Part shown: positions 1,784 through 42,015 of the stretch, in pieces | How the letters are laid out: every line of letters starts with the position of its first letter | Position numbering within the stretch: the first letter of the stretch is position 1 | Assembly: GCF_000007365.1 (NCBI RefSeq) | Contig: NC_004061.1 | Coordinates: forward strand, 577,455 to 641,454 | Length of the DNA: 64,000 nucleotides | Direction: 5' to 3' | Source: Buchnera aphidicola str. Sg (Schizaphis graminum) | GTDB taxonomy: Bacteria > Pseudomonadota > Gammaproteobacteria > Enterobacterales > Enterobacteriaceae | Position numbers and translations under genes: made by a program | The notes under the pieces: generated by a model | Seen by the model: only the letters and a program-made list of their open reading frames with translations | The model's database searches: none | Told to the model about the DNA's origin: nothing

Positions 1784-2798
1784 ATGAAAAAAAAATTTAT
1801 ATATATTGCATACACAGGTGGTACTATTGGGATGCAAAAATCAAAATATGGATATATTCCTATTTCTGGATATCTTCAAAAACAATTAATTAACATGCCA
1901 GAATTTCATAGTTCAGAGATTCCAAATTTTACTATTAAAGAATACAATCCGTTAATTGACTCATCTAATATGACTCCAATAGAATGGCAAAAAATTGCAG
2001 ACGATATTAAAAATAATTATCATAAGTATGATGGATTTATTATTCTGCACGGAACAGATACCATGGCATATACTGCATCAGCTTTGTCGTTTATATTAGA
2101 AAATTTAGAAAAACCAGTGATAATAACAGGATCTCAAATTCCGCTATCAGAAATCCGATCAGATGGACGACAAAATTTATTAAACGCATTGTTAATGGCT
2201 GCAAATTATCCTATTAACGAAGTTACTCTGTTTTTTAATCATAGATTATATAGAGGAAATAGAACAACTAAATCACATGCTGATGGATTTGACGCTTTTT
2301 CTTCACCTAATTTAGGACCTTTGTTAGAAGTAGGAATCAATATTCAATCTTTTTACAAAGAGAAATTTAAAAAAAAAGTAAAAAAACTCAAGGTATATAA
2401 AATAAAACCACAACCTATCAGCATACTTACAATATATCCAGGCATATCTAAAGAAGTAATACAAAACTTTTTATCCAATCCAGTAAAAGCGTTGATTTTA
2501 TGTACCTATGGAATAGGAAACGCTCCGCAGAATACAGATTTTTTAAAAGAGTTAGATATTGCCAAAAAAAAAAAATATTATCGTAATAAATTTAACACAA
2601 TGTGCATCTGGATGCGTTAATATGAATAATTATGCAACTGGTAATTCACTCATAAAAGTTGGTGTTATTAGCGGATATGATTTAACAATAGAAGCGGCAT
2701 TAACTAAGTTGCATTTTCTATTAAGTCAAAATCTTTCGATTGAAAAAATTCGTATTCAAATGCAAAACAACTTACGGGGCGAATTAACTTTAAATTAA
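1784..2798 (+). CDS. ansA: L-asparaginase I (cytoplasmic), frame broken at a 12-A tract
   Basis: Hydrolyses asparagine to aspartate and ammonia in the cytoplasm. The N-terminal part has the asparaginase signatures TGGTIGM (residues 11-17) and HGTDTMAYTASAL (about 89-101), and aligns along its length with E. coli AnsA. At 2564-2575 there is a run of 12 A; the frame in use then reaches a stop at 2618-2620. The C-terminal quarter (INLTQCASG... to LRGELTLN) continues in another frame to 2798. Eleven A (one fewer) would join both parts into one protein of about 337 residues, the normal length. There are no other lesions, so transcript slippage could still give some enzyme. Confidence 0.9.
2564..2575 (+). 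repeat. A12 homopolymer interrupting ansA
   Basis: Twelve consecutive A after GCC. The upstream frame reads KKKKYY and soon stops; the frame that matches AnsA (KKKNIIVINLTQC) requires one A fewer. Confidence 0.9.
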
Positions 2799-2847
2799 GT
2801 AATTTTCATATGTTTTTTAAAAAATATTAGATATTGATTTAAAAAAT

Positions 2848-3426
2848 TCAATAAAAAGAATGATTACCATGAAGATGGTCAGTCTGATCAATTACTTTTT
2901 TTATTTCGGGGAAAAAAGATAATATCTTTTTCTCAACTATTTCTTTTAAAGTAGTTCCAATCATTGAACATCCATTACATCCTCCAGTAAATTTTATTAA
3001 AGCTGTATTATTTTGAGAAATCTGAATTAAATGAACTTTCCCTCCATGCATTGATAATTGGGGATTGATATTATTGTTTAAAAAGTTTTCTATCCTTTCT
3101 TTTAAAGAAGATGCAGTATTTTTTGAATAATTTTGCTTAGCATAAGGCGCTTTAAAAGTTAATTGTGAACCTACATTATCAACTATAAGATCAATCTCAG
3201 AATTTTTTAAAAAAGAAATGATAGATCGATCAACATAAACAAAAAAATGATTATAATTTAATTTAATATCATGATTTTCTACGTCATCTTCAGTACAGTA
3301 TGCTACGCCGCATTCTGCATTTTGTGTACCTGGATTTATAATAAATACACGTATTTGAGTACCGATAGGTTCTTTTGATAAAAGTGATATAAAATGATTT
3401 TGAGCCTTATCAGAAATATTAATCAT
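2848..3426 (-). CDS. nfuA: Fe-S cluster carrier NfuA
   Basis: Scaffold or carrier that delivers 4Fe-4S clusters to target proteins. At 192 residues it matches E. coli NfuA (191). Residues 1-100 form the degenerate A-type (IscA-like) domain and the last 80 the Nfu domain, with the cluster-binding CxxC at Cys150 and Cys153 (GGCNGCSM). It faces ansA tail to tail and is divergent from bioH. Together with iscS, iscU, hscBA and fdx at the other end of the window it makes up most of the Fe-S machinery. Confidence 0.95.
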
Positions 3427-3558
3427 AAATGTTAATTTAGTAAAATTTTAATTATGATTAATTTTACTAATTTATTATAATAAATACAAGAATATTCTGT
3501 TCATAATAGAATGATCTTATATGAAAACAATAAAAAAATTTTTATTTAGGAAAAATAA

Positions 3559-4327
3559 ATGAAAAATTTTTACTGGAAAACAATAGGCCATGGAAAAATT
3601 AATCTTATTGTGTTAAATGGGTGGGGATTCAATTCAAAAATTTGGTTTATTATTATTAATCAACTTAATAATATATTTAAATTTTATTTAATTGATTTAC
3701 CTGGAATAGGAATTAACAAACATTTACTACCAGTTAAAATCGATGAAATAAGTGAAATTTTATATTATTATATGCCTAAAAATTCTATTTGGTTAGGATG
3801 GTCTATGGGTGGATTAATTACTAATCGATTTGCTTCATTATATCCACAAAACATCTTAGGAGTAATAAATGTTACTTCTTCTCCATGTTTTATAAAAAAA
3901 AAAATGGCCCGGAGTAGAAGAAAAAACAATGCATCGTTTTTACAAAAATTTAAAAAAAAATTATTATGATACAATAAATAATTTTTTATCTTTACAAGTA
4001 TCAGGATCAAAAGAAAATTTACAAGATCTAAAAAAATTAAAAAAAATAATATCTTATGAAGATAAACCAGATAAAAAAATGTTAAAAAATGGATTAGAAA
4101 TACTTCTTTCAACGGATTTACGGTTAGAAAAAAATATTCTTAAAATTCCTTTATTACGTATATATGGTGCTTTAGATAGTTTAGTTCCAAAAAAAATATC
4201 TAAAATACTTGATAAAAAATGGCCTGAAAGCATTTCTATTATTATAGAAAAAGCAGCTCATATACCTTTTATTTCACATAAAGAACAATTTTGTCATATT
4301 TTACTAAAATTTATAAAAAATCTTTGA
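3559..4327 (+). CDS. bioH: Pimeloyl-ACP methyl ester esterase, frame broken at an 11-A tract
   Basis: Alpha/beta hydrolase that removes the methyl ester from pimeloyl-ACP in biotin synthesis. The upstream part has the GWSMGG nucleophile elbow (catalytic Ser); the downstream part has the acid in YGALDSLVP and the catalytic His in AAHIPFISH. A run of 11 A at 3894-3904 throws the frame. With 10 A the sequence continues as KKKWPGVEEKTMHRFY, matching the WPGI stretch of E. coli BioH, and gives about 255 residues. An AGGA ribosome-binding site precedes the ATG. No other lesions, so it may be rescued by slippage. Confidence 0.88.
3894..3904 (+). repeat. A11 homopolymer interrupting bioH
   Basis: Eleven A between TAT and TGG. 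Loss of one A (or gain of two) rejoins the two halves of BioH. Confidence 0.88.
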
Positions 4328-4343
4328 TTTAAAAAAATATATA

Positions 4344-4362
4344 GCCCCTAAAAAATTGGGGC
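4344..4362. terminator. Bidirectional hairpin terminator between bioH and ssb
   Basis: GCCCC (4344-4348) pairs with GGGGC (4358-4362) around a 9-base loop. This GC-rich stem is very unusual in such AT-rich DNA. Read on the minus strand it is followed by a T-rich stretch (tatatattttttt); read on the plus strand it is followed by ATTTTATTTTT. It sits between convergent genes and would serve both. Confidence 0.75.
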
Positions 4363-4378
4363 CATGGATTTTATTTTT

Positions 4379-4867
4379 CTAAAAAGGAATTTCATCATCA
4401 AAATCTATTTCTGAAGAATCAATTTTTTCTATTTTTTTAGGAGAATTATTTATTTCTATTTTTTTTGTTTTTACAATATTATTATTTTCATTTAATGTGA
4501 CATTATGAGAATTTGAATTACGATTTCCTAACATTTGCATCGTACCGCCAATGTTAACTATAACTTCTGTTGTATAACGTTCAAGACCATTTTGGTCTTG
4601 CCATTTTCTAGTTTGAAGAGATCCTTCAATATAAACTTGAGAACCTTTTCTTAAATATTCTCCAGCAATTTCGGCTAATTTTCCAAATAATACTATTCTA
4701 TGCCATTCTGTTTTCTCTTTGTTTTCACCAGTATTTTTATCTTTCCAATTTTCTGAAGTTGCAAGTGTCATATTTACTACTGCGTTACCGTTCGGCATGT
4801 AACGAACTTCAGGATCTTGACCCAAATGACCAATTAATATTACTTTATTTACACCTCTACTTGCCAT
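4379..4867 (-). CDS. ssb: Single-stranded DNA-binding protein
   Basis: Coats single-stranded DNA in replication, repair and recombination. The start is the ATG at 4867 ([20 protein letters not shown]), which matches the family start and has a GGAG site 8-11 bases upstream; an in-frame ATG 14 codons earlier looks spurious. The OB fold spans about residues 1-110. The linker is short and polar, and the conserved acidic tip DFDDEIPF that recruits partner proteins is intact. 162 residues, against 178 in E. coli. The long gap to dnaB probably holds the promoter. Confidence 0.96.
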
Positions 4868-5748
4868 AATCAAAACTCCATTTTCTAACTTTAAAAAAAT
4901 TAAGTACATTTTTAAATAGAATTTTTAATTATTTGTAATACAAATACATCATGAATACCTAATTTAATATAACCAAAATTATAAAAAACGATATATTAAA
5001 ATAATTAAGATATTAGAAATAATAAAAATTTTTTAATAGTTGTTTTTATAAAAATTTTTTTTAAAAAATAAAAATTTATATCTTTTTTTAATTAAAAAAA
5101 ACTATTAAAAAAATTATAAACTATAATTTTATATATTTTTAAAAATTAAATAATATTTTTTATATTAATGTATTATTTTAAATAATTACAAGTTTTTGAA
5201 AAATTTAAAAAACGTAATTAATTTTTTTAAGTTTTAAAAAAAAATTCTTTTTAAATAAATTCCAACATCATAGATTTTATCTTAAATAAAACATTGTTAT
5301 AGTAATTTTGTTTCTGAGAATATAAAAAAAATTGAATTATATTTTCATAAATTTTTATAAATAATCTCAAAAAAGTAAAACTGATTTGATAAAAAATAAA
5401 TAAAATTAAATTTTTTATTATATATATTCTTATTAAAATCTATCAAAATAAAGTGAAAAATTAATTTTAACATTATTTAGTATATCAAAAAATATTCCCT
5501 TAAAAATATATTCCCTTAATAAAATAAGAATATACTTTTCAGAAAAATTAATAAAATATCTTATTATATATTTTTTTGACATGATCAATCGAATACTTAA
5601 AGATAAAAATAAAAAATTTTTTTTAGATAATCGATTTCTTAAAATAAGATAAAAAACTAAATTGGATTAGTGAATAAATAGTCTACTATTTAAAATACTA
5701 TAATATAATTTTACAATGATTCACTAAATAATGGTATATCCAATATAT
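4868..5748. other. 881-base AT-rich gap between ssb and dnaB
   Basis: No open frame, RNA gene or recognisable pseudogene remains visible. It contains long A and T runs, a 12-base direct repeat (ATATTCCCTTAA at 5492-5503 and 5508-5519), and one promoter-like pair close to dnaB. Probably the eroded remains of lost genes, but I find no residual homology to name them. Confidence 0.6.
5576..5604 (+). promoter_or_regulatory. Candidate sigma-70 promoter for dnaB
   Basis: A perfect TTGACA at 5576-5581 is followed after exactly 17 bases by AAAGAT (5599-5604), a weak -10. It lies about 125 bases upstream of the dnaB coding start. A full consensus -35 is uncommon in sequence this AT-rich, but the -10 is poor, so this is tentative. 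Confidence 0.4.
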
Positions 5749-7128
5749 ATGGCAAAAAATAAATCATATTTACATCAAATTAATAGATTAAAAATTCCAC
5801 CACATTCATTAGAAGCAGAACAATCAGTATTAGGTGGATTAATGTTAGATAATGAACAATGGGATTCTGTTTCAGAACACGTAGTAGCTGATGATTTTTT
5901 TAGTAAACCACATCGTTTAATATTTCAAGAGATGCAACAATTATTAGATTTAGGACATCCTATTGATTTAATTACATTATCAGAATCGTTAGAACAAAAG
6001 GGAAAATTAGAAAGTGTAGGTAGATTTTCTTATTTAGCAGAATTATCAAAAAACACTCCTAGCACAGCAAATATTATAGCATATGCTGATATAATACGCG
6101 AAAGAGCAATAGTAAGGGAAATGATATTAGTAGCCAACAAAATAGCAAATGCTGGATATGATACTCAAGGGAGAAAAAGCGAAGAATTATTAGATTATGC
6201 AGAATCTAGTGTATTTAAAATTGCCGAAAAACGTTTTAAAAAAGATTCAGGTCCCAAAAATATTGAACAAATTCTCGATGAAACTGTTACTAGTATTGAA
6301 AAATTATTTTTATCTCCTAATGATGGAGTAACAGGAATAAATACAGGATATCAAGATTTAAATAAAAAAACATCAGGTTTGCAGCCTTCAGAGCTTATTA
6401 TTATTGCAGCAAGACCTTCAATGGGTAAAACAACTTTTGCAATGAACTTATGTGAAAATGCTGCTATGCTATATGATAAACCAGTATTAATTTTTAGTTT
6501 AGAAATGCCTGGAGAGCAAATCATGATGCGTATGTTAGCATCTTTATCCAGAGTTAATCAGGCACGTATTCGAACAGGACAATTAAATGATGAAGATTGG
6601 TCTCGCATGTCTGGTACTATCAATGTTTTACTTAAAAAAAAGAATATTTATATAGATGATTCTTCAGCTCTTACTCCTAGTGAAGTTCGTTCTAGAGCAC
6701 GTCGTATTTATCGTGAAAATAAGGGATTAACTTTAATAATGGTTGATTATTTACAACTAATGAGAGTTCCATCTCTTTCTGATAACAGAACTCTTGAAAT
6801 TGCTGAAATTTCAAGAACTTTAAAAGCATTGGCAAAAGAATTACAAGTACCAGTTATAGCATTATCACAATTGAATCGTTCTTTAGAACAAAGATCAGAT
6901 AAAAGACCAGTAAATTCAGATTTACGCGAATCTGGTTCTCTAGAACAAGATGCAGATTTAATAATGTTTATATATCGCGACGAAATATATCACGAAAACA
7001 GTGATTTTAAAGGTGTGGCAGAGATTATAATAGGGAAACAAAGAAATGGACCAATTGGGACAATATGCTTAACATTTAACGGACACTGGTCTAGATTTGA
7101 TAATTATTGTGGTCCTAAATATGATTGA
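5749..7128 (+). CDS. dnaB: Replicative DNA helicase
   Basis: Hexameric 5'-3' helicase at the replication fork. The N-terminal domain (about residues 15-110, IPPHSLEAEQSVLGG) is followed by the RecA-like core with Walker A ARPSMGKTTF, Walker B IMVDYLQLM and the arginine-finger region QRNGPIGT. It is 459 residues from the ATG at 5749 (MAKNKSYL, resembling E. coli MAGNK); an upstream in-frame ATG at 5731 would add six residues, and neither has a clear ribosome-binding site. E. coli DnaB has 471 residues. Very strongly conserved. Confidence 0.97.
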   Translation: MAKNKSYLHQINRLKIPPHSLEAEQSVLGGLMLDNEQWDSVSEHVVADDFFSKPHRLIFQEMQQLLDLGHPIDLITLSESLEQKGKLESVGRFSYLAELSKNTPSTANIIAYADIIRERAIVREMILVANKIANAGYDTQGRKSEELLDYAESSVFKIAEKRFKKDSGPKNIEQILDETVTSIEKLFLSPNDGVTGINTGYQDLNKKTSGLQPSELIIIAARPSMGKTTFAMNLCENAAMLYDKPVLIFSLEMPGEQIMMRMLASLSRVNQARIRTGQLNDEDWSRMSGTINVLLKKKNIYIDDSSALTPSEVRSRARRIYRENKGLTLIMVDYLQLMRVPSLSDNRTLEIAEISRTLKALAKELQVPVIALSQLNRSLEQRSDKRPVNSDLRESGSLEQDADLIMFIYRDEIYHENSDFKGVAEIIIGKQRNGPIGTICLTFNGHWSRFDNYCGPKYD

Positions 7129-7290
7129 ATAATACAATAATTTTAGATTAAGATACCAATCTTATTCAAATTAATTTTTATTTTTAAAATTTAACAACTA
7201 ATTTTAATTAAGAAAATTGTAATTTTAAAAAAATGCGTTTTGTATTATATTTACAACACATAATTTAATTTAGTATTGAGTTATAAACAT

Positions 7291-8253
7291 ATGAGAAAAA
7301 AAAAGAATTTAAAAATCGGAATAGTAATGGATTCTATTACATTAATTAACATCAAAAAAGACTCAAGTTTTGCTATATTATTAGAAGCTCAAAAAAGACA
7401 ACATGAAATTTATTATATGGAAATGAATGATCTCTATTTAAGGAAAGGTCAATCGTATGCAACAACAAAATCAATAGAAATTCAAAAAAATCAAAATAAT
7501 TATTTTAAATTTATTCAAAAAAAAGATATTTCATTAAATGAGTTAGATGCTATTTTAATGCGAAAAGATCCTCCATTTAATACTGAATTTATTTACGCAA
7601 CATATATTCTCGAACGTGCAGAAGAAAAAGGTGTATTAGTAATTAACAAACCCAAAAGTTTAAGAGACTGCAACGAAAAAATATTTATATCATGGTTTTC
7701 TAGATTTACTACAGACACGTTAGTTACAAGAAAATTATCTAAAATACATAATTTTTGGAAAGAAAAAAACGACATAATATTAAAACCCTTAGATGCAATG
7801 GGTGGGAAAGGTGTCTTTCGTATTAAGAAAGATGACCCTAATTTTTCTGTTATTGTAGAAACACTTACAAATTACGAAAAGAAATATTGTATGATTCAAA
7901 CTTATTTACCAGAAGTACAATTCGGTGACAAAAGAATTTTAATTGTAAATGGAAAACCTATACCTTGGTCTTTAACACGTATTCCTAAACATGGAGAAAC
8001 AAGAGCAAATTTGGCTGTTGGAGGAGAAGGAAGGGTACAGAAACTAAACGATAAAGATTGGGAAATAGCTAATTATTTGGCTCCAATTTTAAAAAAAAGA
8101 GGATTAATTCTTGTTGGATTAGATGTAATAGGTGATAAATTAACAGAAATAAATGTTACAAGTCCAACATGTATTTGTGAAATTGAAGAAAAGAAAAATA
8201 TTTCTATTACAGGTATTTTAATCGATTATATTGAAGATAAAATATATAAATAG
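7291..8253 (+). CDS. gshB: Glutathione synthetase
   Basis: ATP-grasp ligase that adds glycine to gamma-glutamylcysteine. The start chosen is the ATG at 7291 (MRKKKNLKIGIVMDS), giving 320 residues against 316 in E. coli; a TTG at 7276 is in frame but has no support. Family motifs are MRKDPPFNTEFIYATY, the nucleotide-binding loop GGKGVFR and the metal site INVTSPTC near the C-terminus. ruvX starts 11 bases after it, so the two are probably co-transcribed; in E. coli yqgE lies between them and is absent here. Confidence 0.96.
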   Translation: MRKKKNLKIGIVMDSITLINIKKDSSFAILLEAQKRQHEIYYMEMNDLYLRKGQSYATTKSIEIQKNQNNYFKFIQKKDISLNELDAILMRKDPPFNTEFIYATYILERAEEKGVLVINKPKSLRDCNEKIFISWFSRFTTDTLVTRKLSKIHNFWKEKNDIILKPLDAMGGKGVFRIKKDDPNFSVIVETLTNYEKKYCMIQTYLPEVQFGDKRILIVNGKPIPWSLTRIPKHGETRANLAVGGEGRVQKLNDKDWEIANYLAPILKKRGLILVGLDVIGDKLTEINVTSPTCICEIEEKKNISITGILIDYIEDKIYK

Positions 8254-8263
8254 AGATCAAAAA

Positions 8264-8677
8264 ATGATAGTAATAGCTTTTGATTTTGGTTTAAAGAATA
8301 TTGGAGTAGCAGTCGGAGAAAATATCCTTAAAAAAGGCAGAGCTTTAAATAAATTATCTGCAAAAAACGGATCTCCAGATTGGAATAATATAAAAAATTT
8401 ATTAAAAATATGGCAACCCAAATTTTTGGTTGTAGGACTACCATTAAATATAGATGGTACTAGGCAAGATATAACGAAAAAAGCAGAAAAATTTGCTTTT
8501 TTATTAAAATATAAATTTAATATTTTTGTTTATTTACATGATGAACGTTTAAGTACTAAAGAAGCTAAATCATTAATATTTAAGAAAAATGGTTTTAAAG
8601 TATTAAAAAAAGAAAAAATACATTCTGTTGCTGCTGTAATTATATTAGAAAGTTGGTTTAATCAAAATTTATATTAA
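8264..8677 (+). CDS. ruvX: RuvX/YqgF family RNase H-fold protein (pre-16S rRNA nuclease)
   Basis: Small RNase H-like nuclease implicated in 5' maturation of 16S rRNA. The ATG at 8264 gives 137 residues (E. coli 138), with the family motifs AFDFGLKNIG near the N-terminus, VVGLPLN in the middle and HDERLSTKEA towards the end, carrying the acidic catalytic residues. An earlier in-frame ATG at 8231 lies within gshB and is unlikely. Follows gshB closely in an operon. Confidence 0.93.
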   Translation: MIVIAFDFGLKNIGVAVGENILKKGRALNKLSAKNGSPDWNNIKNLLKIWQPKFLVVGLPLNIDGTRQDITKKAEKFAFLLKYKFNIFVYLHDERLSTKEAKSLIFKKNGFKVLKKEKIHSVAAVIILESWFNQNLY

Positions 8678-8708
8678 TTCTTTAATACATTCAAATTAAT
8701 GATAAAAC

Positions 8709-9398
8709 ATGAACAATATTAATATCAATATTAAAATTATTAAAAAAAAAATTCAATATTTTTTAAAGAAAAATAACTATCCTTTAAAAAAAATAAAAAT
8801 AATCGCAGTGAGCAAAAACCAAGGAATTGATAAAATAAAATTAGCAATATCATCTGGAATACACGAATTTGGAGAAAATTACGTTCAAGAAGGAATTGAT
8901 AAAATTCAAAAATTAAAAAAATATCAAAATATTATTTGGCATTTTATTGGAAAAGTTCAATCAAATAAAACAAAAATTATTGCAGAAAATTTCGATTGGT
9001 GTCAAACTATAGACCGCGAAAAAATCGCAATTCTACTTAATAAATATAGAGAAAAAAAATCATTTCCAATGAATGTCTTAATGCAAATAAACATCTCTAA
9101 TGAAGTAACTAAAAATGGCATATGCATAAAAAATTATAAAAAATTAGCAAAAACTATTTCTTTAATGCCTAATTTAAATTTTCGAGGAATTATGATGATG
9201 CCTGAAGTAGAAAAAAAAATGATAAAACAAAATGATAATTATAAAAATGGAAACTTTATTTTTAATGAATTAAAAAAAGAATACCAGTCAATTGATACTT
9301 TATCATTAGGTACAAGTTTTGATATAGAAAATGCTTTACTTTTTCACAGTAATATGATTAGAATTGGACGTTTTATTTTTAAAAATCAAGTTAGATAA
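8709..9398 (+). CDS. yggS: Pyridoxal-phosphate homeostasis protein (YggS/PROSC family)
   Basis: PLP-binding single-domain TIM-barrel protein that buffers vitamin B6 and influences amino-acid pools. At 229 residues it is normal in length. The PLP lysine is in IIAVSKNQG (about residue 37), followed by GENYVQE, WHFIGKVQSNK and SLGTSFDIENAL, all family hallmarks. It lies between ruvX and hemW on the same strand; in E. coli yggT, yggU and rdgB intervene before hemW and are missing here. Confidence 0.95.
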   Translation: MNNININIKIIKKKIQYFLKKNNYPLKKIKIIAVSKNQGIDKIKLAISSGIHEFGENYVQEGIDKIQKLKKYQNIIWHFIGKVQSNKTKIIAENFDWCQTIDREKIAILLNKYREKKSFPMNVLMQINISNEVTKNGICIKNYKKLAKTISLMPNLNFRGIMMMPEVEKKMIKQNDNYKNGNFIFNELKKEYQSIDTLSLGTSFDIENALLFHSNMIRIGRFIFKNQVR

Positions 9399-9426
9399 TA
9401 TGTTAAATATTTATTAAAATACTACT

Positions 9427-10557: not shown

Positions 10558-10563
10558 AAAATT

Positions 10564-15724: not shown

Positions 15725-16380
15725 ATGAAGTGGAAAAAAGAATTCATTAAATTTCTTTTAAAAAAAAAGTCTTCAATTTTGGAAATTTTATACTAAAATC
15801 TGGAAAAACAAGTCCCTATTTCTTCAACTCAGGTCTATTATCTAAGGGAGAAGATATTGCTAAGATTGGTTGTTTTTACGCACAAGCTATAATTAATTTA
15901 AATATTAAATTTGATATCTTATTTGGTACTGCTTATAAAGGTATCCCAATTGTAGTCGCCACCTCTATAGCATTAAAAAATCAATATAATTTAGACGTTC
16001 CATATTCTTTTAACAGAAAAGAAGAAAAAAAATATGGAGAAAAAGGATCCTTTGTAGGAGCAAATATAAAAAATAAAAAAATTATTATTTTAGACGACGT
16101 GATTACGTCAGGAATTTCAATCAATCATGCAGCTAAAATAATAAAACAAGAAAAAGCTGAAATATCTTCAATTTTTGTTTTATTAGATAGAAAAGAAAAA
16201 CAAGAAAATTACTTAGATATAATAATTAACTCACAAGATAAAAAAAAATGTAAAATCAATTCAATTATTACAATTGATGACTTTATATCTTATCTTTTAG
16301 AAGAAAAAAAATTAAAAAAATATGCATATAAATTAATCGAATATCGTAAAAAATTAGCAATAATAAGAAGTAATAGGTAA
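15725..16380 (+). CDS. pyrE: Orotate phosphoribosyltransferase, frame broken at a 9-A tract
   Basis: Joins orotate to PRPP in pyrimidine synthesis. The ATG at 15725 starts MKWKKEFIKFLL, then nine A at 15760-15768 shift the frame into a stop at 15794. With ten A the frame continues as KKKVFNFGNFILKSGKTSPYF, aligning residue for residue with E. coli, and stays open to 16380, about 218 residues. Motifs: GTAYKGIP and the PRPP loop IIILDDVITSG. One lesion only. It keeps the E. coli neighbourhood with dut. Probably rescued by slippage. Confidence 0.9.
15760..15768 (+). repeat. A9 homopolymer interrupting pyrE
   Basis: Nine A preceded by TTT-TT and followed by GTC. Gain of one A restores PyrE with the exact spacing of the E. 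coli alignment. Confidence 0.88.
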
Positions 16381-25055: not shown

Positions 25056-26041
25056 TCAAAAAATTTGATCATGAAATGTTAAATTTGTATTCTTTTTAAG
25101 AATATCCAACATCTGTAAAAAAAGAGAATTTAGACTATCAGCATGTAAATAATACACGTTTTTCCATTTTTTTAACCATGTTATTTGATGTTTTGCTAAT
25201 TTTCTTGTTGCAAAAACAATTTTTTTAAACATTTCTTCATAACTAATTTGATATTCAAGATATTCCCACATTTGACGATAACCTATACATCGAATAGATG
25301 GTAAATTTTTATGTATATCTTTTCTAAAAAACAAGTTTTCTACTTCTTTTTGAAAACCTAATTGCATCATTTTTTGTACACGTAATTCAATTTTTTTATA
25401 TAGCCATTTTTTATTTTTTGGTGTAATAGAAAATTGAATAATATTATATGGCAATAAATCAGAATTTTTTATTTCTTTTAAAGATGTTAACGTTTTTCCA
25501 GATATATAAAAAACTTCTAATGCTCTTAGCAATCTTTGAGAATCATTCTTATGAATACGATTAGCAGATATGGGGTCTATTGAATTTAATTTTTCGTATA
25601 AAAATTTTCTGTTATTTTTTTTTTATTTAACAAATATTTCCGAATTTTAATATTAGATGCAGGTAAATTAGATATTCCATATAACAATGTTTGATAATAA
25701 AACATTGTACCTCCAACAAGTAAGGGTATTTTACCTATTTTTAAAATGCTAGAAATTTCTTTTAAAGCGTCTCTTCTAAATTCTGCAGCAGAATAAATTT
25801 CATTCGGATCCTTAATGTTTAACAAGCGATGAGGATGATTTTTTAAATCTATAGGATGTGGCTTATCCGTACCAATATTCATATCTCTATAAATTAATGC
25901 TGAATCAACACTAATTATTTCTATTGGTAAATATTTTCTCAGAAAAATAGCGAATTTACTTTTTCCGCATCCAGTTGGTCCCATTAAAAAAAAAATAATA
26001 GGTTTTTTCTCTTTATCAGAACTTATACTTTTAATATACAT
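25056..26041 (-). CDS. miaA: tRNA dimethylallyltransferase, frame broken at a 10-A tract
   Basis: Attaches dimethylallyl to A37 of tRNAs reading UNN codons. The first half has the P-loop MGPTGCGKS and ISVDSALIYRDMNIGT; the second half has RALEVFYISGKTL and LPSIRCIGYRQMWEYL. The two lie in different frames, divided by a run of ten A (minus strand; T at 25615-25624). Eleven A would read NKKKNNRKFLYEKLNSIDP and join them into about 328 residues (E. coli 316). It overlaps the mutL 3' end by 19 bases. One lesion only; probably rescued by slippage. Confidence 0.9.
25615..25624 (-). repeat. A10 homopolymer interrupting miaA
   Basis: Ten T on the plus strand, ten A in the mRNA. Gain of one A (or loss of two) restores MiaA. 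Confidence 0.88.
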
Positions 26042-33535: not shown

Positions 33536-33562
33536 TTGATAAATATATCTTATATATATAAT
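33536..33562 (+). promoter_or_regulatory. Candidate sigma-70 promoter for tRNA-Gly
   Basis: TTGATA (33536-33541) and TATAAT (33557-33562), with a 15-base spacer, ending 36 bases before the tRNA. The -10 is perfect; a shifted TAATAT at 33559 would give a 17-base spacer. Confidence 0.5.
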
Positions 33563-33598
33563 ATAAATAAATATAATAAGCATAAAATTATAAATTTT

Positions 33599-33674
33599 GC
33601 GGGAATAGCTCAGTTGGTAGAGCACAACCTTGCCAAGGTTGGGGTCGCGAGTTCGAATCTCGTTTCCCGCTCCA
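33599..33674 (+). tRNA. tRNA-Gly(GCC)
   Basis: Acceptor GCGGGAA pairs with TTCCCGC, anticodon loop TTGCCAA carries GCC, T arm GCGAG TTCGAAT CTCGT, and CCA is encoded at 33672-33674. Confidence 0.97.
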
Positions 33675-33719
33675 TTTATATCATCAATCTAAAAATTAAA
33701 TTATAGATAAGGAAAATTT

Positions 33720-34624
33720 ATGATTTTTTGTCCTTTTTATAAATGGATAATATTTGCCGTTTTATTATTTACCTTTCAAACACAATCTGCAGATAAACTA
33801 AATAAAATTAATTTCAAAAAAGATAATTTTAAAAAAAATAAATATGATTTTTTTTTAAAAATATAAAAAAAAATCAAAAGAACAAGAACAATACAAAAAA
33901 CCCATTAAAAAAATTTATTATAGTGATTGATCCAGGACATGGAGGACAAGATCCAGGAGCAATAAATAGTTTAGGATTACAAGAAAAAAAAATAACTTTA
34001 AAGATTGGTATAAAACTTAAAAATTTATTACAAAATAGTGATTTATTTTATCCAGTTTTAACGCGAAATGATGATTCTTATGTATCATTAAAAAAAAGAA
34101 GAGATTTTCTAAAAAATAATCACGTAAGTTTTTTAATATCTATCCATGCAGACTCTTCTAAAAAAAGATATGTATCAGGTGCATCAATCTGGATTACTAC
34201 TAATGATAGAATGCATCGTGAAATTAATAATTTTATAAAAAATAGAGAAGAAAACATATATTTTCCTAAAAACATTCAAAATTTAATTCAAAAAAATAAA
34301 CATGATTTTTTTTTAAAAAAAACTGTTCTCGATTTACAATTTAATAATTTTCAAAAAATGGAAATTAATTTATCTAGATATATATTTCAACAACTTAAAA
34401 AAATTATAAAATTAGATAAAATAAATCTAAACTATGCCAGTTTAGGAATACTGAGCTCTATAAATACACCTTCTATGTTAATAGAAACAGGGTTTATCAC
34501 AAATTTTTTAGAAGAAAAAAAATTAAGAACTAACAAATACCAAAATAAAATTGCAAATGCTATCTATATTGCTTTAAAAAATTATTTTCAAGATAGATTG
34601 CTCTCTAACTTGAGAAATACATAA
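33720..34624 (+). CDS. amiB: N-acetylmuramoyl-L-alanine amidase, shortened, frame broken at a homopolymer
   Basis: Periplasmic zinc amidase that splits septal peptidoglycan. The start is ATG 33720, followed by a signal peptide (FYKWIIFAVLLFTFQTQSA, cleavage after QSA). The frame reaches TAA at 33864. The Amidase_3 domain lies in another frame: VIDPGHGGQDPGA (Zn His), LQEKKIT (Zn Glu), ISIHADS (Zn His), LIETGFITN (catalytic Glu). One extra base in the T9/A5 stretch (33848-33861) would join them into about 301 residues. The E. coli AMIN localisation domain is absent. Family assignment (AmiA/B/C) rests on context. Confidence 0.82.
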
Positions 34625-34652
34625 AAAATTTGAAAAATAATTCTTAAAATTA

Positions 34653-34687
34653 TTTTAAGCATCTAATTTATTGTAAGATGCTTAAAA
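34653..34687. terminator. Bidirectional hairpin terminator between amiB and rpmE
   Basis: TTTTAAGCATCT (34653-34664) pairs perfectly over 12 bases with AGATGCTTAAAA (34676-34687) around an 11-base loop. The stem has A and T runs at its ends, so it can serve both convergent genes. Confidence 0.8.
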
Positions 34688-34713
34688 TTAAAAATTATAA
34701 ATTAAAATATCAT

Positions 34714-34932
34714 TTATACCGTATCTTTCTTAATCAGTTTAAAACGTTTTTTAAATCTTTCAACTCGTCCTCCAGTATCAATAATTCTTTGTTTTCCAGT
34801 ATAAAATGGATGACATTTTGCACATATATCTAAATTTAGATTGACATTAACGGTTGAGAAAATTTCAATTATATTTCCACATGAGCAAGTAGCTATTATT
34901 TGAGAATAAGCTGGATGTATTTTTTTTTTCAT
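34714..34932 (-). CDS. rpmE: Large subunit ribosomal protein L31 (zinc-containing form)
   Basis: Bridges the two ribosomal subunits. 72 residues, with the zinc-binding cysteines of the C+ paralogue in ATCSCGN (Cys16, Cys18) and [13 protein letters not shown] (Cys37, Cys40). In E. coli rpmE is followed in the same neighbourhood by priA, cytR, ftsN, hslV and hslU; here priA and cytR are missing. Confidence 0.97.
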
Positions 34933-35035
34933 AAAAGTTTTCCTAAAATATATATAACAATATCTATTCTATTATACGATTATTAGTGTACTAATAATCA
35001 ATATTTTTCAATTTAAATAAAATATATAACAAAAT

Positions 35036-35302
35036 ATGTACAACGATAAAAATAAAATTAATTCAGTGTATTTTAAAAAAAAAAAAAAAAAATAAAAAAA
35101 AAAGAAAATAAATTTAAATAAATATCATATTCTCATTATTATAATAGTTATTATTTTACTTTTTTGCTTTTTAAACATGTTTTTTAAAAAATCAAAAAAT
35201 ATAGAAAAAAAAATTTTTATAGATAAAAAAATAAGTGATGACTTATTACCTCCCAAACCTAAACAAAAATGGAAATATATTCAAAGATTAGAAAATTTGT
35301 AA
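35036..35302 (+). CDS. ftsN: Miniature FtsN: transmembrane anchor plus essential peptide, with an in-frame TAA between two poly-A runs
   Basis: FtsN triggers septal peptidoglycan synthesis in cell division. From ATG 35036 the frame reads 13 residues, six Lys from 18 A, then TAA (35093-35095), then lysines from ten A and a transmembrane helix (KYHILIIIIVIILLFCFLNM), ending LLPPKPKQKWKYIQRLENL. The last stretch aligns with E. coli FtsN residues 75-91, including Trp83, Tyr85 and Leu89 of the essential E domain. The rest of the periplasmic part, with the SPOR domain, is gone. Position before hslV supports the identity. Compensating slippage in the two A runs would remove the stop. Confidence 0.72.
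35075..35103 (+). repeat. A18-T-A10 tract in ftsN
   Basis: Eighteen A (35075-35092), one T, then ten A (35094-35103). The T creates the TAA stop in the FtsN frame. This is the longest homopolymer in the window. Confidence 0.9.
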
Positions 35303-35492
35303 TTTTTAAAATTTCTTTCAAAAATTTAATAAAATTAAATTTTTTGTCCATAATTAATAGTTTTTTTTATTAACAATTTTACTCAAATAATTCATATAAA
35401 TTAAAGTTATAACGCTCAATTTGTTTTATTATAAATTTTATTTTTTATATAATTAAAAAAATAAACACATTATTTTTTAAGAGGTTTTTCTT

Positions 35493-36023
35493 GTGACCAC
35501 AATACTCAGTGTAAGATTAAAAAATAAAGTAGTAATTGGAGGTGATGGACAAGCTACTTTAGGCAATACTATTATGAAAAGTAATGTTAAAAAAATCAGA
35601 ACACTTTATCATGAAAAGGTGATTGCTGGTTTTGCAGGTGGAACTGCAGATGCTTTCACTTTATTTGAAATGTTTGAAAAAAAATTAGCTATGTATCAGG
35701 GTCAATTGCCACGTGCTGCTATTGAATTAGCAAAAGATTGGAGATCTGATAGAATGTTACGTAAATTAGAAGCTTTGTTAGCAGTTGCTGATAAAGACAC
35801 TTCATTAATTATTACTGGAAATGGCGATGTGATACAGCCTGAAGATGATTTAATTGCAATAGGTTCTGGTGGATCTTATGCTCAATCTGCAGCACGTGCA
35901 TTAATTAATAATACTACACTCAACGCTGATGAAATCGTAGAAAAATCATTAAATATTGCAGCAAATATTTGTATATATACCAATCATAGTTTTACTATAA
36001 AAGAACTATTTTCAGAAAAATAA
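35493..36023 (+). CDS. hslV: ATP-dependent protease subunit HslV
   Basis: Proteolytic core of the HslUV (ClpYQ) complex. Starts with GTG at 35493 ([25 protein letters not shown]), with a GAGG ribosome-binding site; Thr2 is the catalytic nucleophile after removal of Met. 176 residues, the same as E. coli. Eleven bases before hslU. Confidence 0.97.
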
Positions 36024-36034
36024 GGATTATTTAT

Positions 36035-37366
36035 ATGTCTGAAATGACACCCCCTCAAATTGTTTCTGAACTTAATAAATTTATTATTGGTCAAGAACAA
36101 GCAAAAAAAGCTGTTGCTATTGCATTAAGAAATCGTTGGAGGAGAATGCAATTAAATAACGAGTTACGTCATGAAATTACTCCTAAAAATATCTTGATGA
36201 TTGGTCCTACTGGAGTAGGAAAAACAGAAATTGCTAGAAGATTGGCAAAATTAGCAAATTCACCTTTTATAAAAGTAGAAGCAACTAAATTTACTGAAGT
36301 TGGATACGTTGGAAAAGAAGTAGACTCAATTATTCGAGATTTAACCGATGCAGCTATTAAAATGATTCGAGTAAAAAACATTGAAAAAAACAAACTTCGA
36401 GTCGAAGAAATAGTTGAAGAAAGAATACTAGACGTTCTAGTACCTAGACCGAAAAATAACTGGACAGAAAATGAAAAAAATGAAAGTTTATTAAATACAT
36501 TGCAAGTATTTCGAAAAAAATTAAGAGAAGGAATTCTCGACGAAAAAGAAATTGAAATTAATGTATTAGCTAGCACTATGGGAGTTGAAATAATGGCGCC
36601 TCCTGGTATGGAAGAGTTAACAAGTCAATTGCAATCTCTTTTTCAAAATTTAGGAGGGCATAAAAAAAATACAAGAAGACTAAAAATAAAAGATGCAGTT
36701 TTGTTATTAAAAGAAGAAGAAGCTGCTAAATTAATAAATCAAGAAGAAATTAAAAAAGAAGCAATTAATGCAGTAGAACAAAATGGTATAGTATTTGTTG
36801 ATGAAATTGATAAAATATGTAAAAGACGTGATTCTTCTGGTCCAGATGTTTCTAGAGAAGGTGTGCAAAGAGATTTACTCCCTTTAGTTGAAGGTTGCAC
36901 TGTATCAACTAAGTATGGCATGGTTAAAACAGATCATATTTTATTTATTGCATCAGGTGCTTTTCAAACATCAACACCTTCTGATTTGATTCCCGAGTTA
37001 CAAGGACGTCTTCCGATCAAAGTAGAATTACAACCATTAACAATTAATGATTTTGAAAAAATTCTAACTGAACCAACTGCATCTATTACAGCACAATATA
37101 AAGCTCTTATGAAAACAGAAGGTGTATGCATCAATTTTACAAAAGAAGGAATACGAAATATTGCAGAAGCAGCTTGGAAAGTTAATGAATCTATGGAAAA
37201 TATTGGAGCACGTCGTTTACATACAATATTAGAAAAACTTATGGAAGATATTTCTTTTAATGCTTGTGATAACGTTGGTAAAACTATTGAAATTAACTCA
37301 GAATATGTTGGAAAACATTTAGATCAACTAATATCTAACGAAGATTTAGGTAGATTTATTTTATAA
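36035..37366 (+). CDS. hslU: ATPase subunit HslU of the HslUV protease
   Basis: AAA+ unfoldase that feeds substrates to HslV. 443 residues as in E. coli. Walker [10 protein letters not shown] (about residues 56-64), Walker [12 protein letters not shown], sensor LQGRLPI, and the C-terminal tail GRFIL that docks into HslV. The intermediate domain is somewhat diverged. Confidence 0.98.
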
Positions 37367-37460
37367 TTTTTAAAATTCTAATCTATTTTTTAATAAATTA
37401 AAACAGATGAATGTTTTTTAAAAAAATATAAATATTTTTATTATTTATTACAAATAGTTG

Positions 37461-37487
37461 TTGAAAAAAAAAAATAAAACCTTATAT
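37461..37487 (+). promoter_or_regulatory. Candidate heat-shock (sigma-32) promoter of ibpA with a poly-A spacer
   Basis: TTGAAA at 37461-37466 and CCTTATAT at 37480-37487, with 13 bases between, fit the sigma-32 pattern (CTTGAAA and CCCCATNT). The A run covers 37464-37474 (11 A), so its length sets the spacer. A one-base deletion in the poly-A of the Buchnera ibpA promoter is a published cause of heat sensitivity in pea aphids. Confidence 0.75.
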
Positions 37488-37576
37488 CGAATTAAGAAAC
37501 TTTTTTTAGTTCCAATATTGATTGTAAGAGTATAAAACTAAAATAAATATAAATCTATAATATGAAAGGAGGTTTT

Positions 37577-38062
37577 ATGTCTTATCGTTCATTTTCTTTT
37601 TTACCAAATATTGATCAAAATAGTGTTTTTTCAAATAGATTCAATCAAATTGATAAAATTTTCAGTACATTAACAGGAGAAAAACCTTTATCAGATACAC
37701 CAGCTTATAATTTATTTCAAATTGACGAACATAAATATGAATTAATATTAAGTATTCCTGGATATGAAGAAAAAGAATTAGATATTTCTGTACATAATAG
37801 TCAACTAACAGTACAGGGAAAAAAACAAAATCAAGAAAATGATGATAAAAAAATAAAAAAATATTTACATAAAGGGATTATATTTAATGATTTTTCTTTA
37901 AATTTTAACTTTGATCATAAAATTCAAGTAAAAAAGGCAGAACTATTTTCAGGATTATTAAAAATTAATTTTGAATGTAGAGTTCCAGATGAAGAAAAAC
38001 CTAAAAAAATATTTATTAATATTCCAAACAAAGTGAAAGAAATTGAAAAAAATAAAATATAA
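37577..38062 (+). CDS. ibpA: Small heat shock protein IbpA
   Basis: Alpha-crystallin family holdase that protects aggregating proteins. The ATG at 37577 (MSYRSFSFLPNIDQ) follows a textbook AAAGGAGG site; an ATG at 37562 lies upstream of that site. The alpha-crystallin domain starts at about residue 40 (YNLFQIDEHKYELILSIPGYEEKELDI) and GLLKINFECRVPDEEKP ends it. 161 residues (E. coli IbpA 137). Confidence 0.95.
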   Translation: MSYRSFSFLPNIDQNSVFSNRFNQIDKIFSTLTGEKPLSDTPAYNLFQIDEHKYELILSIPGYEEKELDISVHNSQLTVQGKKQNQENDDKKIKKYLHKGIIFNDFSLNFNFDHKIQVKKAELFSGLLKINFECRVPDEEKPKKIFINIPNKVKEIEKNKI

Positions 38063-38096
38063 AAATTTTTAATAAAAATGAATATTTTTTTAAATC

Positions 38097-38132
38097 AATC
38101 ATTGTACTTGTTCCAAAATAAGTACAATGATT
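38097..38132 (+). terminator. Hairpin terminator after ibpA
   Basis: AATCATTGTACTT (38097-38109) pairs perfectly with AAGTACAATGATT (38120-38132), 13 pairs and a 10-base loop. The run of T after it is short, so it could also be a 3' stabiliser. Confidence 0.65.
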
Positions 38133-38164
38133 TAAAAATTAAAAAAAGGTAGGAAATTAGATTA

Positions 38165-38938
38165 ATGAATCCATGGATTAATGCTAATGTTTTAAAAGTT
38201 CACAAGTGGACTCAAAATTTGTTCAGTCTTATTTTAAACGCAGAGATTGCTCCTTTTCAAGCAGGACAATTTACAAAATTAGCTTTAAATGAAGAAAACA
38301 TAAATTTTTCTAATAATGTTAAAAAGAAAAAAATTCAAAGAGCATATTCGTTTGTTAATGCTCCAAGTAATAAAAATTTGGAAATTTATATTGTTCGAAT
38401 ACTTAATGGTAAATTAAGTAATCTTTTATATAATTTAAAATCTGGAGATAATTTATTTATTAAAGAAAAATCATTTGGTTTTTTTACTTTAGATGAAATA
38501 CCTAATTGTAAAACATTATGGATGTTTGCTACTGGTACTGGAATAGGTCCTTATTGTTCTATACTACAAGAATATAAAAATATTAATAGATTTAAAAATA
38601 TCATATTAATACATGCTGTAAGATATCAAAACGAATTAACCTATCTTCCTTTAATGAAGCAACTTTATAAAAGTTATAATGGAAAATTAAAGATTGAAAC
38701 AATAGTAAGTAGAGAAAAAAATCATAATTCATTATATGGAAGAATCCCTCTTTTATTACAAAATCAAATTTTAGAAAAAAAAATTGGTTTAAAAATTAAT
38801 CGCAATGATTCACATGTTATGTTGTGTGGAAATCCAGCTATGGTAAAAGATACATATCTTTTCTTACAAAAAGATCGATGTATGCAAAAAAATTTACGAC
38901 GTAAACATGGTCATATTACAATGGAAAATTATTGGTAA
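38165..38938 (+). CDS. fpr: Ferredoxin/flavodoxin-NADP+ reductase
   Basis: FAD enzyme that passes electrons from NADPH to ferredoxin or flavodoxin. 257 residues (E. coli 248). RAYSFVNAP is the FAD site, [10 protein letters not shown] the NADP-binding loop, CGNPAMV another conserved turn, and the C-terminus ITMENYW matches E. coli TAEHYW. A likely electron donor for the Fe-S assembly and radical SAM proteins in this window. Confidence 0.96.
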
Positions 38939-38942
38939 TATT

Positions 38943-39916
38943 TTAAGAACGTTCAAATGAAAAAGACATAACTTGATCAATGCTATTTTTATTTAAAGCT
39001 ATCATAATTAAACGATCTAACCCTATAGCGACCCCTGAACAAGTCGGCAGACCATGATGGATTGCATCTAAAAAATAGTCATCTATTTTTTGTTCAGGAA
39101 GGTTCATATCACAGCGTTTTCTATTATCTTTAATAAAACGTTTTCTTTGTTCAAAATAATCCGTTAATTCATGAAAACCATTTCCTAATTCAATTCCTTT
39201 AAAAAAAATCTCAAATCTTTCTGAAACACGACTGTCTTTTTTATTTATAGAAGCAAGACAAGCTTGTTCTGAAGGAAAATGATAGACGAAAAGTGGTTTT
39301 TCTTTGCCAAGAAAAGGCTGTATTTGTAATGTAAATATATTTTCTATTAATTGATTTAAATCATTTTCAAGATAAATTAAATTTTTTAAGTTAAATTTTT
39401 TATAACATTGAAACAGTTCAGATAAACTAGTAGATAAAGGATCTATTTTTAAAAATTTCATGAATACTTCTTGATAAGAAATTTTATCTGCTTTATTAAA
39501 ATTTAATATTTTTTGAAAAAAAAAGTCTATTTCTTCAATCATTTTTTCCATAGAACAAGAAAGTTGATACCATTCAAGCATAGTAAACTCTGGATTGTGA
39601 TATTGACCAAATTCTTGGTTTCTAAAACTACGGCAAATTTGATATATAGATCCGCTTCCTGCAGATAATAAACGTTTCATATGATATTCTGGACTAGTTA
39701 TTAACCATAATTTTTTTTTTTAATATTGTCATTAAAAGAAAAATAATTAGTTATAAACGGCATCAAATTTACATCTGTTACTCCTGATTGAGATAATATT
39801 GGAGTTTCTACTTCCATAATATTTTTTTTTAAAAAAAAAGAGCGAATATCAGCGATAATTTTTGATCTTTTCATTAAATCTTTAATAGAAGCACTAGGTT
39901 TCCATTTTTTTTTCAT
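38943..39916 (-). CDS. epmA: EF-P lysine ligase EpmA (GenX/YjeA), frame broken at an 11-A tract
   Basis: Class II lysyl-tRNA synthetase paralogue that attaches beta-lysine to elongation factor P. The N-terminal frame (KPSASIKDLMKRSKIIADIRSFF, EVETPILSQSGVTD) ends at 39701; the rest (MKRLLSAGSGSIYQICRSFRNQE, HNPEFTMLEWY, GIELGNGFHELTD, SGVAIGLDRLIM) is in another frame. The break is a run of 11 A (T at 39711-39721). Twelve A gives KKKKLWLITSPEYHMKRLL, matching E. coli, and a protein of about 325 residues, the expected length. One lesion. Confidence 0.9.
39711..39721 (-). repeat. A11 homopolymer interrupting epmA
   Basis: Eleven T on the plus strand. Gain of one A in the mRNA restores EpmA. 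Confidence 0.88.
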
Positions 39917-40015
39917 ATATTGCCTTTAAAAAAATAAGAATATTAATTCTTAAAAAATATTATATATTTAATAAATAACTTTAACATAATTGATTTATAG
40001 ATAAAAAAATAAAAA

Positions 40016-40513
40016 ATGAAAAAAATTGCAATATATCCAGGTACGTTTGATCCAATTACATACGGACATTTAGATGTTATAACACGTGCAACAAAAATTT
40101 TTGATAATATCATTATTGCCATTTCAAATAACGTACATAAAAAAACTATTTTTAATTTAAAAGAACGAATAAAATTAACTAAACTAGCTACATTTCATCT
40201 TAAAAATATAAAAAAAGTAATTGGATTTAATGGTTTGCTCGCTAATTTAGCAAAAAGGGAAAAAAGTAATATTTTAATTAGAGGAGTACGAACAATATTT
40301 GATTTTGATTATGAAATAAAATTAGCAGCTATAAATAAACAAATTTATCCTGATTTAGATAGTATTTTTTTTCTTTCTTCTAAAGAAGTATCATTTATAT
40401 CTTCATCTTTTGTAAAAGAAATAGCGAAATATCAAGGTAACATTAAACCGTATCTTCCTAAAGAAATACATTTCGCTTTAATAAAAAAATTTAAAGATAT
40501 TCCTCAAAAATAA
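40016..40513 (+). CDS. coaD: Phosphopantetheine adenylyltransferase
   Basis: Adds AMP to 4'-phosphopantetheine in coenzyme A synthesis. The nucleotidyltransferase motif GTFDPITYGHLDVI is at residues 9-22; ILIRGVRTIFDFDYE and SSKEVSFISSSFVKEIA follow. 165 residues (E. coli 159). Confidence 0.97.
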   Translation: MKKIAIYPGTFDPITYGHLDVITRATKIFDNIIIAISNNVHKKTIFNLKERIKLTKLATFHLKNIKKVIGFNGLLANLAKREKSNILIRGVRTIFDFDYEIKLAAINKQIYPDLDSIFFLSSKEVSFISSSFVKEIAKYQGNIKPYLPKEIHFALIKKFKDIPQK

Positions 40514-40529
40514 ATATTATTTTTTAAAA

Positions 40530-40556
40530 AATAGGGTATATAAAATATACCCTATT
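40530..40556. terminator. Bidirectional hairpin terminator after coaD
   Basis: AATAGGGTATAT (40530-40541) pairs with ATATACCCTATT (40545-40556), 12 pairs with a 3-base loop, followed by ATATTTTTC on the plus strand. It lies between convergent coaD and the unrecognised gene. Confidence 0.85.
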
Positions 40557-40588
40557 ATATTTTTCAAAACATATTTACGTTAAAAAAA

Positions 40589-42015
40589 TCAATGAACAAA
40601 TTTTGAAAATTTTACTCTTGGTGAATTCGCAGCAGAAAGAATTATACTCGTACGTATTTTAAAAGAATAATTTGGCTGAATAGAATTTTTGTCTTTTGCA
40701 CGTAAATTAGACACATGAGTAACAACTAACTTTATTTGATTATTATCTATATGTGTAATTGTATAAACGTTTCTTGAATTTACAGTTTGATATTTATTTA
40801 TTTCTGGATGTTCAGAAAGCAAATGAAGGTAAGACTGACTTAAAATTTTTGGATGTGCATATGCAGAAATTAATTGTTGATCTGTAATATTTGGAACTAT
40901 TTTTTTAAACTTTTCTATCATATCTTCTTTATTTGTAGAGGGAATTAAATGTCCATCGATAACAAAAATAGCTGAATGAAAATCTTTCATAAAGTCTTTA
41001 TTTAATTCTTCAGAAGAAGATTTTAACTTTTCATATATTTTTTGAAAGCCTCTTATCATAGAAAAGACATTTGCAGGTGATAAATCGAATTTATCTGAAA
41101 ACTTCCAAATATTGTTGTCTGTAAAATATTTATAATGAGATTTTTCAATAGCTTTATTCATTCTATCTCTAAATTTTTTATCAACTCGTAAGGTACCTTC
41201 TCTTACTTCTATATCAAAATTTTCGTCTAAATTAGATGGATACCATTGATTTAAATTTTCTTTTTTGGGAACTGCAACATTAAGATCAGGGAATGAACTT
41301 TCATATTCAGGATGACGTGGATTTTTATTTAGTTTATTAACTACTTTTAATCTTCCTTCTTCTTTAACTTTTTCGATTATAGTATCTATAAAAAATTTTG
41401 AAGATTCAATTGTTTTATTTAATTCTTCAACTTGTTTCACTAAATTATCAATTTTTTCACTTGTTTCTTTAGTTGATTCTGTTGGTTGTGAAAATAATTC
41501 GCATCCGGCATTAAAAATTTTTAAAAAAGTTGTACCATTAAAAAGATTTATAGTTTCGTTTTTAATTTTCTCGTAAGCACTGAGTATGCTATCTTTTATT
41601 GTATTAAAAGATTCTATTATTTTTTTTTTTAAATTAATATCTTTAATTGTTGTTTCAATTTTTTCTTGAATTCGTTCTAATATATCGAGTGGATTGTAGG
41701 AAGTACTTTCAGCAGAGGACTCAGAAGAGGATTCAGAAAAAGTTTTTTTTTCATTATAAAATCATTAAATTTTAATAAATATTTTTTATAAAAATTTTCT
41801 AAATTAATTAAATTGTTTTTATTTTCGTTTTCGTTTTCAATATAATTAATAGAAACTTTAGTACTGCTAATAGGATGTTTTTTTTCTTCTATTAAAATTT
41901 TTGAAGTATTTTTAAGATTTTTTAGTGATTTATGGCATATTTCATCAATTTTAACTTTTAATTCTTTATGACGTATTGGATTTAATTTATCAACTAGAGT
42001 AACATTAGATGACAT
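40589..42015 (-). CDS. Large unrecognised protein, frame broken at a 9-A tract
   Basis: I recognise no family. From ATG 42015 a Lys-rich polar segment reaches MKKK at a run of nine A (T at 41743-41751). With ten A the protein runs on as TFSESSSESSAESTSYNPLD to 40589, about 475 residues, without stops. It contains an acidic Ser-rich linker, helical stretches with coiled-coil character (IDNLVKQVEELNKTIESSK), and a C-terminal half richer in structure (IWKFSDKFDLSPANVFSMIRG, NVYTITHIDNNQIKLVVTHV). No signal peptide or membrane helix. It may be one of the Buchnera-only orphan (yba) genes; I infer this from position and lack of similarity only. Confidence 0.7.
41743..41751 (-). repeat. A9 homopolymer interrupting the unrecognised gene
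   Basis: Nine T on the plus strand. Gain of one A joins the 112-codon first frame to the long second frame, which is already open at this point. Confidence 0.8.

Follow-up and report, generated by a model that had tools for sequence, protein, structure and literature searches.

When a gene of a symbiont is split by a frame shift within a run of A or T, is it being lost, or is it still read as one protein? This question is raised by the final 64 kb of the single 641,454-base contig of Buchnera aphidicola str. Sg (from Schizaphis graminum; hereafter Sg, labelled G000 in genome comparisons), a stretch that we refer to as the window. A sequence-only reading of this DNA had claimed that seven or more genes, among them ansA, bioH, pyrE, miaA, epmA, amiB and an orphan gene (yba3), are each broken once at a homopolymer, a pattern that it took to fit rescue by transcriptional slippage. 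All seven breaks were recovered at the runs that it had named, and these runs comprised 9-12 A or T. The proposal of rescue was upheld in part. Rescue of some kind is well supported for yba3, pyrE, miaA and bioH, because their breaks are shared between species and the codons downstream are constrained; it is plausible for amiB, and undecided for ansA and epmA.

In Sg, each of the seven genes consists of two open pieces that lie in different frames and overlap at the run; the first piece is short for pyrE (23 codons) and amiB (48 codons). NCBIfam or Pfam models matched on both sides of the break in ansA, bioH, miaA and epmA, and on the main side only in amiB and pyrE. A/T runs of at least 9 make up 1.2% of the window's bases, yet 7/7 breaks lie inside one. 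This is what replication slippage would be expected to produce, so by itself it does not demonstrate rescue. The breaks were compared with the matching 64 kb from 15 relatives and with parts of that region from 20 further genomes of the genus. Ratios of nonsynonymous to synonymous substitution rates (dN/dS) were calculated pairwise by the Nei-Gojobori method, with intervals from a codon bootstrap, and the tree takes in 35 genomes.

The yba3 break and its run of nine A

The orphan gene has no match to any family, and was called yba3 from the source-given name of a homologue; Pfam and PDB sequence searches with Yba3 returned no convincing match. It lies on the reverse strand, with an open reading frame (ORF) at 41677..42015 as its first part, an ORF in another frame at 40589..41761 as its second part, and a run of nine A (T9 on the forward strand) at 41743..41751. 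The gene was present in 34/36 genus genomes (no copy was found in G005 or in G009, and in the latter the hemD stretch is given as N), and in 33 of these 34 the two parts were in different frames. The exception was G036, in which both parts share one frame with the run unchanged. When 198 genomes were searched in the family, homologues of the second part were found in 16 genomes of other genera, and in 14 of these 16 yba3 was a single ORF from an MSS-like start to the end. Given the split in 33/34 genomes within the genus and the single frame in 14/16 outside it, the break evidently dates from close to the base of the genus and has persisted.

The run itself was nine A in 34/34 genomes, with a majority-base frequency of 1.00 across all nine columns; the flanking columns mostly agreed at 0.4-0.8, and the second column after the run was also invariant. 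As a control, 39 A/T runs of at least 9 were followed in 17 genes that were treated as intact in Sg because the Sg copy was within 12% of the median length and at least 14 genomes were represented; the amidase part of amiB is one of the 17. On average, the length of such a run was unchanged in 20% of relatives, and that of the best-kept one in 11/15 (73%); in the same relatives the yba3 run kept its length in 15/15. The second part was in the -1 frame in 29 genomes and in the +1 frame in four (G001, G006, G014 and G037), and these four do not form one clade.

Other observations on yba3 favour recoding. A GG-bearing stretch was present upstream of the start of the first part in 31/31 genomes, and, given how often stops occur in the other frames of 31 genomes, an open first ORF of at least 99 codons would be expected by chance at ~1.5e-7. 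In the second part, dN/dS was 0.19-0.45 in 9/10 pairs, one of the nine including the unsplit G036. The database record P0011 (Brachycaudus Buchnera, 474 aa) already spans both frames, so an annotator had already noticed the joined gene. We regard it as very probable that yba3 is recoded by one route or another. A more specific proposal is that the nine-A run serves as a programmed recoding site, established close to the base of the genus and fixed since then, which would set the amount of full-length Yba3 made from a highly expressed message, and that Yba3 would be a distant EspG/VirA-like protein passed to the aphid via the flagellar export machinery; we consider this proposal, taken as a whole, to be improbable.

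Shared breaks in pyrE, miaA, bioH and hemD

The gene pyrE was present in 36/36 genus genomes. In Sg, its start region is at 15725..15796 on the forward strand, with a run of nine A at 15760-15768, and the main part, which matches Pribosyltran, is in another frame at 15751..16380. The start region was off frame with respect to the main part in 14/36 genomes, and in frame in 21 and in G004. Thirteen of the 14 off-frame genomes belong to a 14-genome clade (support 97) in which G034, with the gene in frame, is the exception; the off-frame pyrE of G033 stands apart from this clade, giving three changes on the tree. For the main part, dN/dS was 0.20, 0.25, 0.15, 0.12 and 0.05 in five off-frame pairs and 0.15-0.19 in five in-frame pairs, and no interval reached 1 in either set.

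The breaks in miaA and bioH were both common to G000, G018, G032 and G042, which form one clade with support 99. In Sg, miaA is on the reverse strand, with its first part at 25586..26041 (TIGR00174 positions 2-130), its second part in another frame at 25056..25622 (positions 130-286) and its run, T10 or A10 on its own strand, at 25615-25624. The remaining 15 of 19 regions had miaA in a single frame. In the four broken genomes, the run lengths were A10, A12, A12 and A11, respectively, and both offsets occurred (2 and 2). The dN/dS of the second part was 0.19-0.25 in four broken pairs, compared with 0.13-0.38 in three intact pairs. The first part of bioH is at 3559..3969 on the forward strand (BioH model positions 1-115), with a run of eleven A at 3894-3904, and its second part, in another frame, is at 3896..4327 (TIGR01738 positions 106-245). 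In the four genomes bioH was off frame at the same place and with the same offset. Among the other 15 bioH regions, 10 gave one-frame matches (weak or partial in G002 and G006), G016 was broken elsewhere, G017 and G001 were eroded, and G014 and G003 had none. In three broken pairs, the second part of bioH had a dN/dS of 0.16-0.27.

Relaxed selection downstream of the breaks, which the sequence-only reading had named as a refutation of rescue, was not what the pairs indicated: constraint was kept in nearly all of them for yba3, pyrE, miaA and bioH. The dN/dS measure was able to reveal relaxation, as eroding copies gave 1.26 (0.78-2.14) for bioH between G001 and G006, and 0.59 (0.39-0.81) for the first part of ansA between G032 and G042. 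Also, when more than one lesion or a relaxed dN/dS was taken as the mark of a pseudogene, yba3 (except in G037, where it is decaying), pyrE and miaA did not qualify, and Sg hemC and hemD did so through their stops.

That reading had used hemD, hemC and cysQ as a contrast of dead genes, and this use has to be revised. In Sg, hemD (48199..48948, forward strand) is decayed, with a run of eight A at 48495-48502 that is A9 in most relatives. Both parts of the gene were found in 33/36 genus genomes; they were in different frames in 27 and in one frame in five, and the Sg copy was broken by stops. Among the 27, 24 had one offset (including G032 and G045, at another run) and three had the other (G014, G037 and the decayed copy of G018). 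In the 29 genomes whose run at the common junction was readable by motif search, in-frame copies included, it was A9 in 21, A10 in five, A8 in two and A7 in one. The second part had a dN/dS of 0.25 and 0.19 in two off-frame pairs, and of 0.56 (0.33-1.01) between Sg and G018. Outside the genus, hemD was matched in 2/16 genomes, one of which (G156) covers nearly the whole family model in one frame. From these sequences, hemD emerges as a further old break in the genus, although the Sg copy, to judge from its stops, is dead. In hemD, one of the three, the same kind of break occurs in most relatives. The contrast is weak for cysQ and hemC, which are damaged as claimed, yet still have a dN/dS of 0.10-0.28 against G018. 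With regard to hemC (47257-48200), in-frame stops coexist with low dN/dS, so its damage looks recent.

Breaks in ansA, epmA and amiB

In Sg, the first part of ansA is at 1784..2620 on the forward strand (asparaginase, NF006998 positions 1-263), with a run of twelve A at 2564-2575, and the second part is in another frame at 2556..2798 (NF006998 positions 262-336). G018 and G032 carry the gene in a single frame, and the copy of G042 is eroded. On the reverse strand, epmA has its first part at 39701..39916 (NF006828 positions 3-68), its run (T11) at 39711-39721 and its second part, in another frame, at 38943..39719 (positions 69-324). Among 34 genomes, the epmA break of Sg was seen in G000 only; elsewhere there were 24 one-frame matches, seven genomes without a match, an eroded copy in G031 and a copy broken near its start in G036. 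One of the 24, that of G010, was only 29% identical and may be a paralogue, and the G007-G010 pair (dN/dS 0.96) was dropped as a control for this reason. The breaks in ansA and epmA would thus be recent. Because they are found in Sg only, age and selection cannot tell rescue from fresh inactivation, and low dN/dS values are uninformative here because part of the divergence from G018 and G032 predates the break.

The sequence-only reading had also listed amiB as broken in Sg, which is correct, except that the gene is out of frame in most relatives as well. In Sg, a signal-peptide ORF of 48 codons, also kept in relatives, is at 33720..33866 on the forward strand, and the amidase part (Amidase_3, 1.7e-45; NF007751 positions 184-419) is in another frame at 33848..34624, with T9 at 33848-33856. 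When 34 genomes were compared, no core was found in G015, and three genomes had no signal peptide. The remaining 30 comprised 23 with the signal-peptide ORF and the amidase part in different frames, five with both in one frame, and two with both in the same frame but separated by a stop. The break sites and offsets varied, which argues for repeated breakage rather than a single old site. The core had a dN/dS of 0.09-0.20 in five pairs.

Broken frames near A/T runs were also observed in other genes of the region. G018 has its own breaks in further genes near such runs (clusters c2, c15 and c45), and in G007, G010 and G011 the gene upstream of the tRNA-Gly locus (cluster c33) goes out of frame close to its end, at runs of A13-A15.

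Routes across the breaks

We lean towards polymerase slippage as the main route across the breaks, with somewhat better than even confidence. According to this model, the genes would be working, or have been so until recently, with a slippery A/T run at the point where the frame changes; RNA polymerase would slip on the run, some transcripts would carry a non-genomic run length that places both parts in one frame, and the full protein would be made from a fraction of the messages. Sites with nine A mostly had one offset (yba3, 29/33; pyrE, 14/14; hemD, 24/27). Longer runs (A10-A12, in miaA, bioH, ansA and epmA) showed either offset, as would be expected if slippage there yields many lengths. 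The predominance of -1 at the nine-A sites fits slippage that mostly lengthens the run, because Buchnera insertions are concentrated in homopolymers: PMC5574713 places 151/157 insertions, and 16/57 deletions, among its Buchnera transcription errors in homopolymers.

Ribosomal -1 frameshifting at the run would fit this predominance too. It is further favoured by the slippery heptamers that stand in frame (A_AAA_AAG, in which the pyrE runs end, and A_AAA_AAA in yba3 and hemD of the genomes with the -1 offset), and PMC7245037 proposes ribosomal frameshifting in other frame-broken Buchnera genes. However, the other offset was seen in yba3 (4/33), bioH (4/4), miaA (2/4) and hemD of G014 and G037. 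Moreover, RNA folding downstream of the run showed no stem at yba3 (z -0.09, 34 sites), pyrE (z -0.23, 15 sites, including the in-frame G009 and G012) or hemD (z 0.03, 20 sites, including the one-frame G039), and a scan of pyrE and hemD found no Shine-Dalgarno-like stretch. Both offsets in yba3 and miaA, the absence of a stem at yba3, pyrE and hemD and of a Shine-Dalgarno-like stretch at pyrE and hemD, and published slippage in the genus (shown for one locus of R. padi Buchnera, PMC3164680) lead us to favour polymerase slippage, and we rate the ribosomal route as rather unlikely.

Ordinary decay, in which the breaks inactivate genes that are being lost, would suit ansA and epmA. Homopolymer indels are a usual first hit, and several relatives have an eroded bioH or epmA or none at all; as a general account, decay is made improbable by the sharing of breaks across species and by the constrained codons in yba3, pyrE, miaA and bioH. 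The idea that all breaks are recent was also rejected. A second part made as a separate protein, from a start codon of its own, would agree with the A. pisum homologue P0006, which appears to be annotated with a start just after the run. We consider this very improbable: the second yba3 frame has no conserved ATG, GTG or TTG (such codons were scattered, and none occurred in the first ~100 codons in 7/33 genomes), the parts form one ORF in most homologues outside the genus and in G036, and pyrE, with its first common start codon a GTG at 16099, would be shorter by at least about a quarter. Finally, the Sg assembly is an old one and runs are hard to read, which would count for sequencing error. 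The same yba3 and pyrE states recur across many separate genomes. Error is unlikely for yba3, pyrE, bioH and miaA, and as an explanation of the breaks we give it almost no weight.

Several observations weigh against rescue by polymerase slippage, or temper it. The claim that both sides of each break stay conserved was borne out for miaA (4 pairs) and bioH (3/4 pairs), and for pyrE and yba3 only after the break. The first part of yba3 was without clear constraint, with a dN/dS of 0.41-1.28 and an interval including 1 in all 10 pairs; the first piece of pyrE was too short for dN/dS, and ansA and epmA were not informative on this point. In bioH, the second part had a dN/dS of 0.60 (0.36-1.15) between G032 and G042. 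In yba3, the second part had 0.89 (0.65-1.22) between G037 and G039, and the first part of G037 is broken further. The hemD run is less fixed in length (A7-A10), and the ansA and epmA breaks, being private to Sg, give no test. As to method, pairwise Nei-Gojobori estimates were applied to AT-rich DNA, the tree was built from only four proteins, and the control runs were read in a codon alignment, whereas the yba3 run was located as the break itself; 2/39 control runs lie within the amiB amidase part. Also, PMC5574713 found no transcription error that restored a frame in A. pisum Buchnera.

If these genes are rescued, genes that annotations of reduced genomes record as truncated, or count as pseudogenes, may still function, and leaving pyrE, miaA or bioH out of a metabolic map of Sg could be a mistake. 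One of the few genes specific to Buchnera carries an A9 whose length is constant across the genus, which would offer a clean natural test of the dependence of a symbiont on slippage by polymerase or ribosome; where the offsets are opposite, the two mechanisms can be told apart directly. In PMC3164680, Table 1 lists 18 homopolymeric frameshifts and 17 pseudogenes for Sg Buchnera, 42/69 pseudogenes are counted as single-genome homopolymer cases, and the supplementary gene list may name Sg frameshifts of the window. The old breaks of yba3, hemD and pyrE were not found in the literature searched. The general idea of poly(A) slippage rescue in the genus is already in print. It is the age of the breaks that is new here, together with the run of nine A in yba3 and the cases of hemD and pyrE.

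Tamas et al. (2008, PNAS) reportedly found that infidelity of the polymerase rescues frameshifts at poly(A) in both Buchnera and Blochmannia. Those cases and ours are alike in the single break within an A run, the conservation of both halves and the genus; they differ in that breaks in the Sg window are common to clades, or to the genus as a whole, and are known here from genomes alone. For Blochmannia, Wernegreen et al. (2010) reportedly described ancient frameshifts that selection maintains. Again a break is common to species without decay (yba3 in 33/34, with G037 decaying; pyrE in 13/14 of a clade; miaA and bioH in 4/4), but here in another genus and other genes, and with a yba3 run of nine A in every genome. 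Programmed -1 ribosomal frameshifting of the Escherichia coli dnaX type uses a slippery heptamer and a stimulatory structure or Shine-Dalgarno. The Buchnera sites share its heptamers and usual -1 offset, and differ from it in the missing stem, the missing Shine-Dalgarno at pyrE and hemD, and the other offset at some sites. Lastly, PMC5009743 reports bacterial cases, dnaX and one in Shigella, of transcriptional slippage on runs of 9 A or T. The Buchnera breaks resemble these in their runs of nine and in the lack of a detected structure; unlike them, the yba3 offset varies between genomes, and the Buchnera product is predicted from the DNA.

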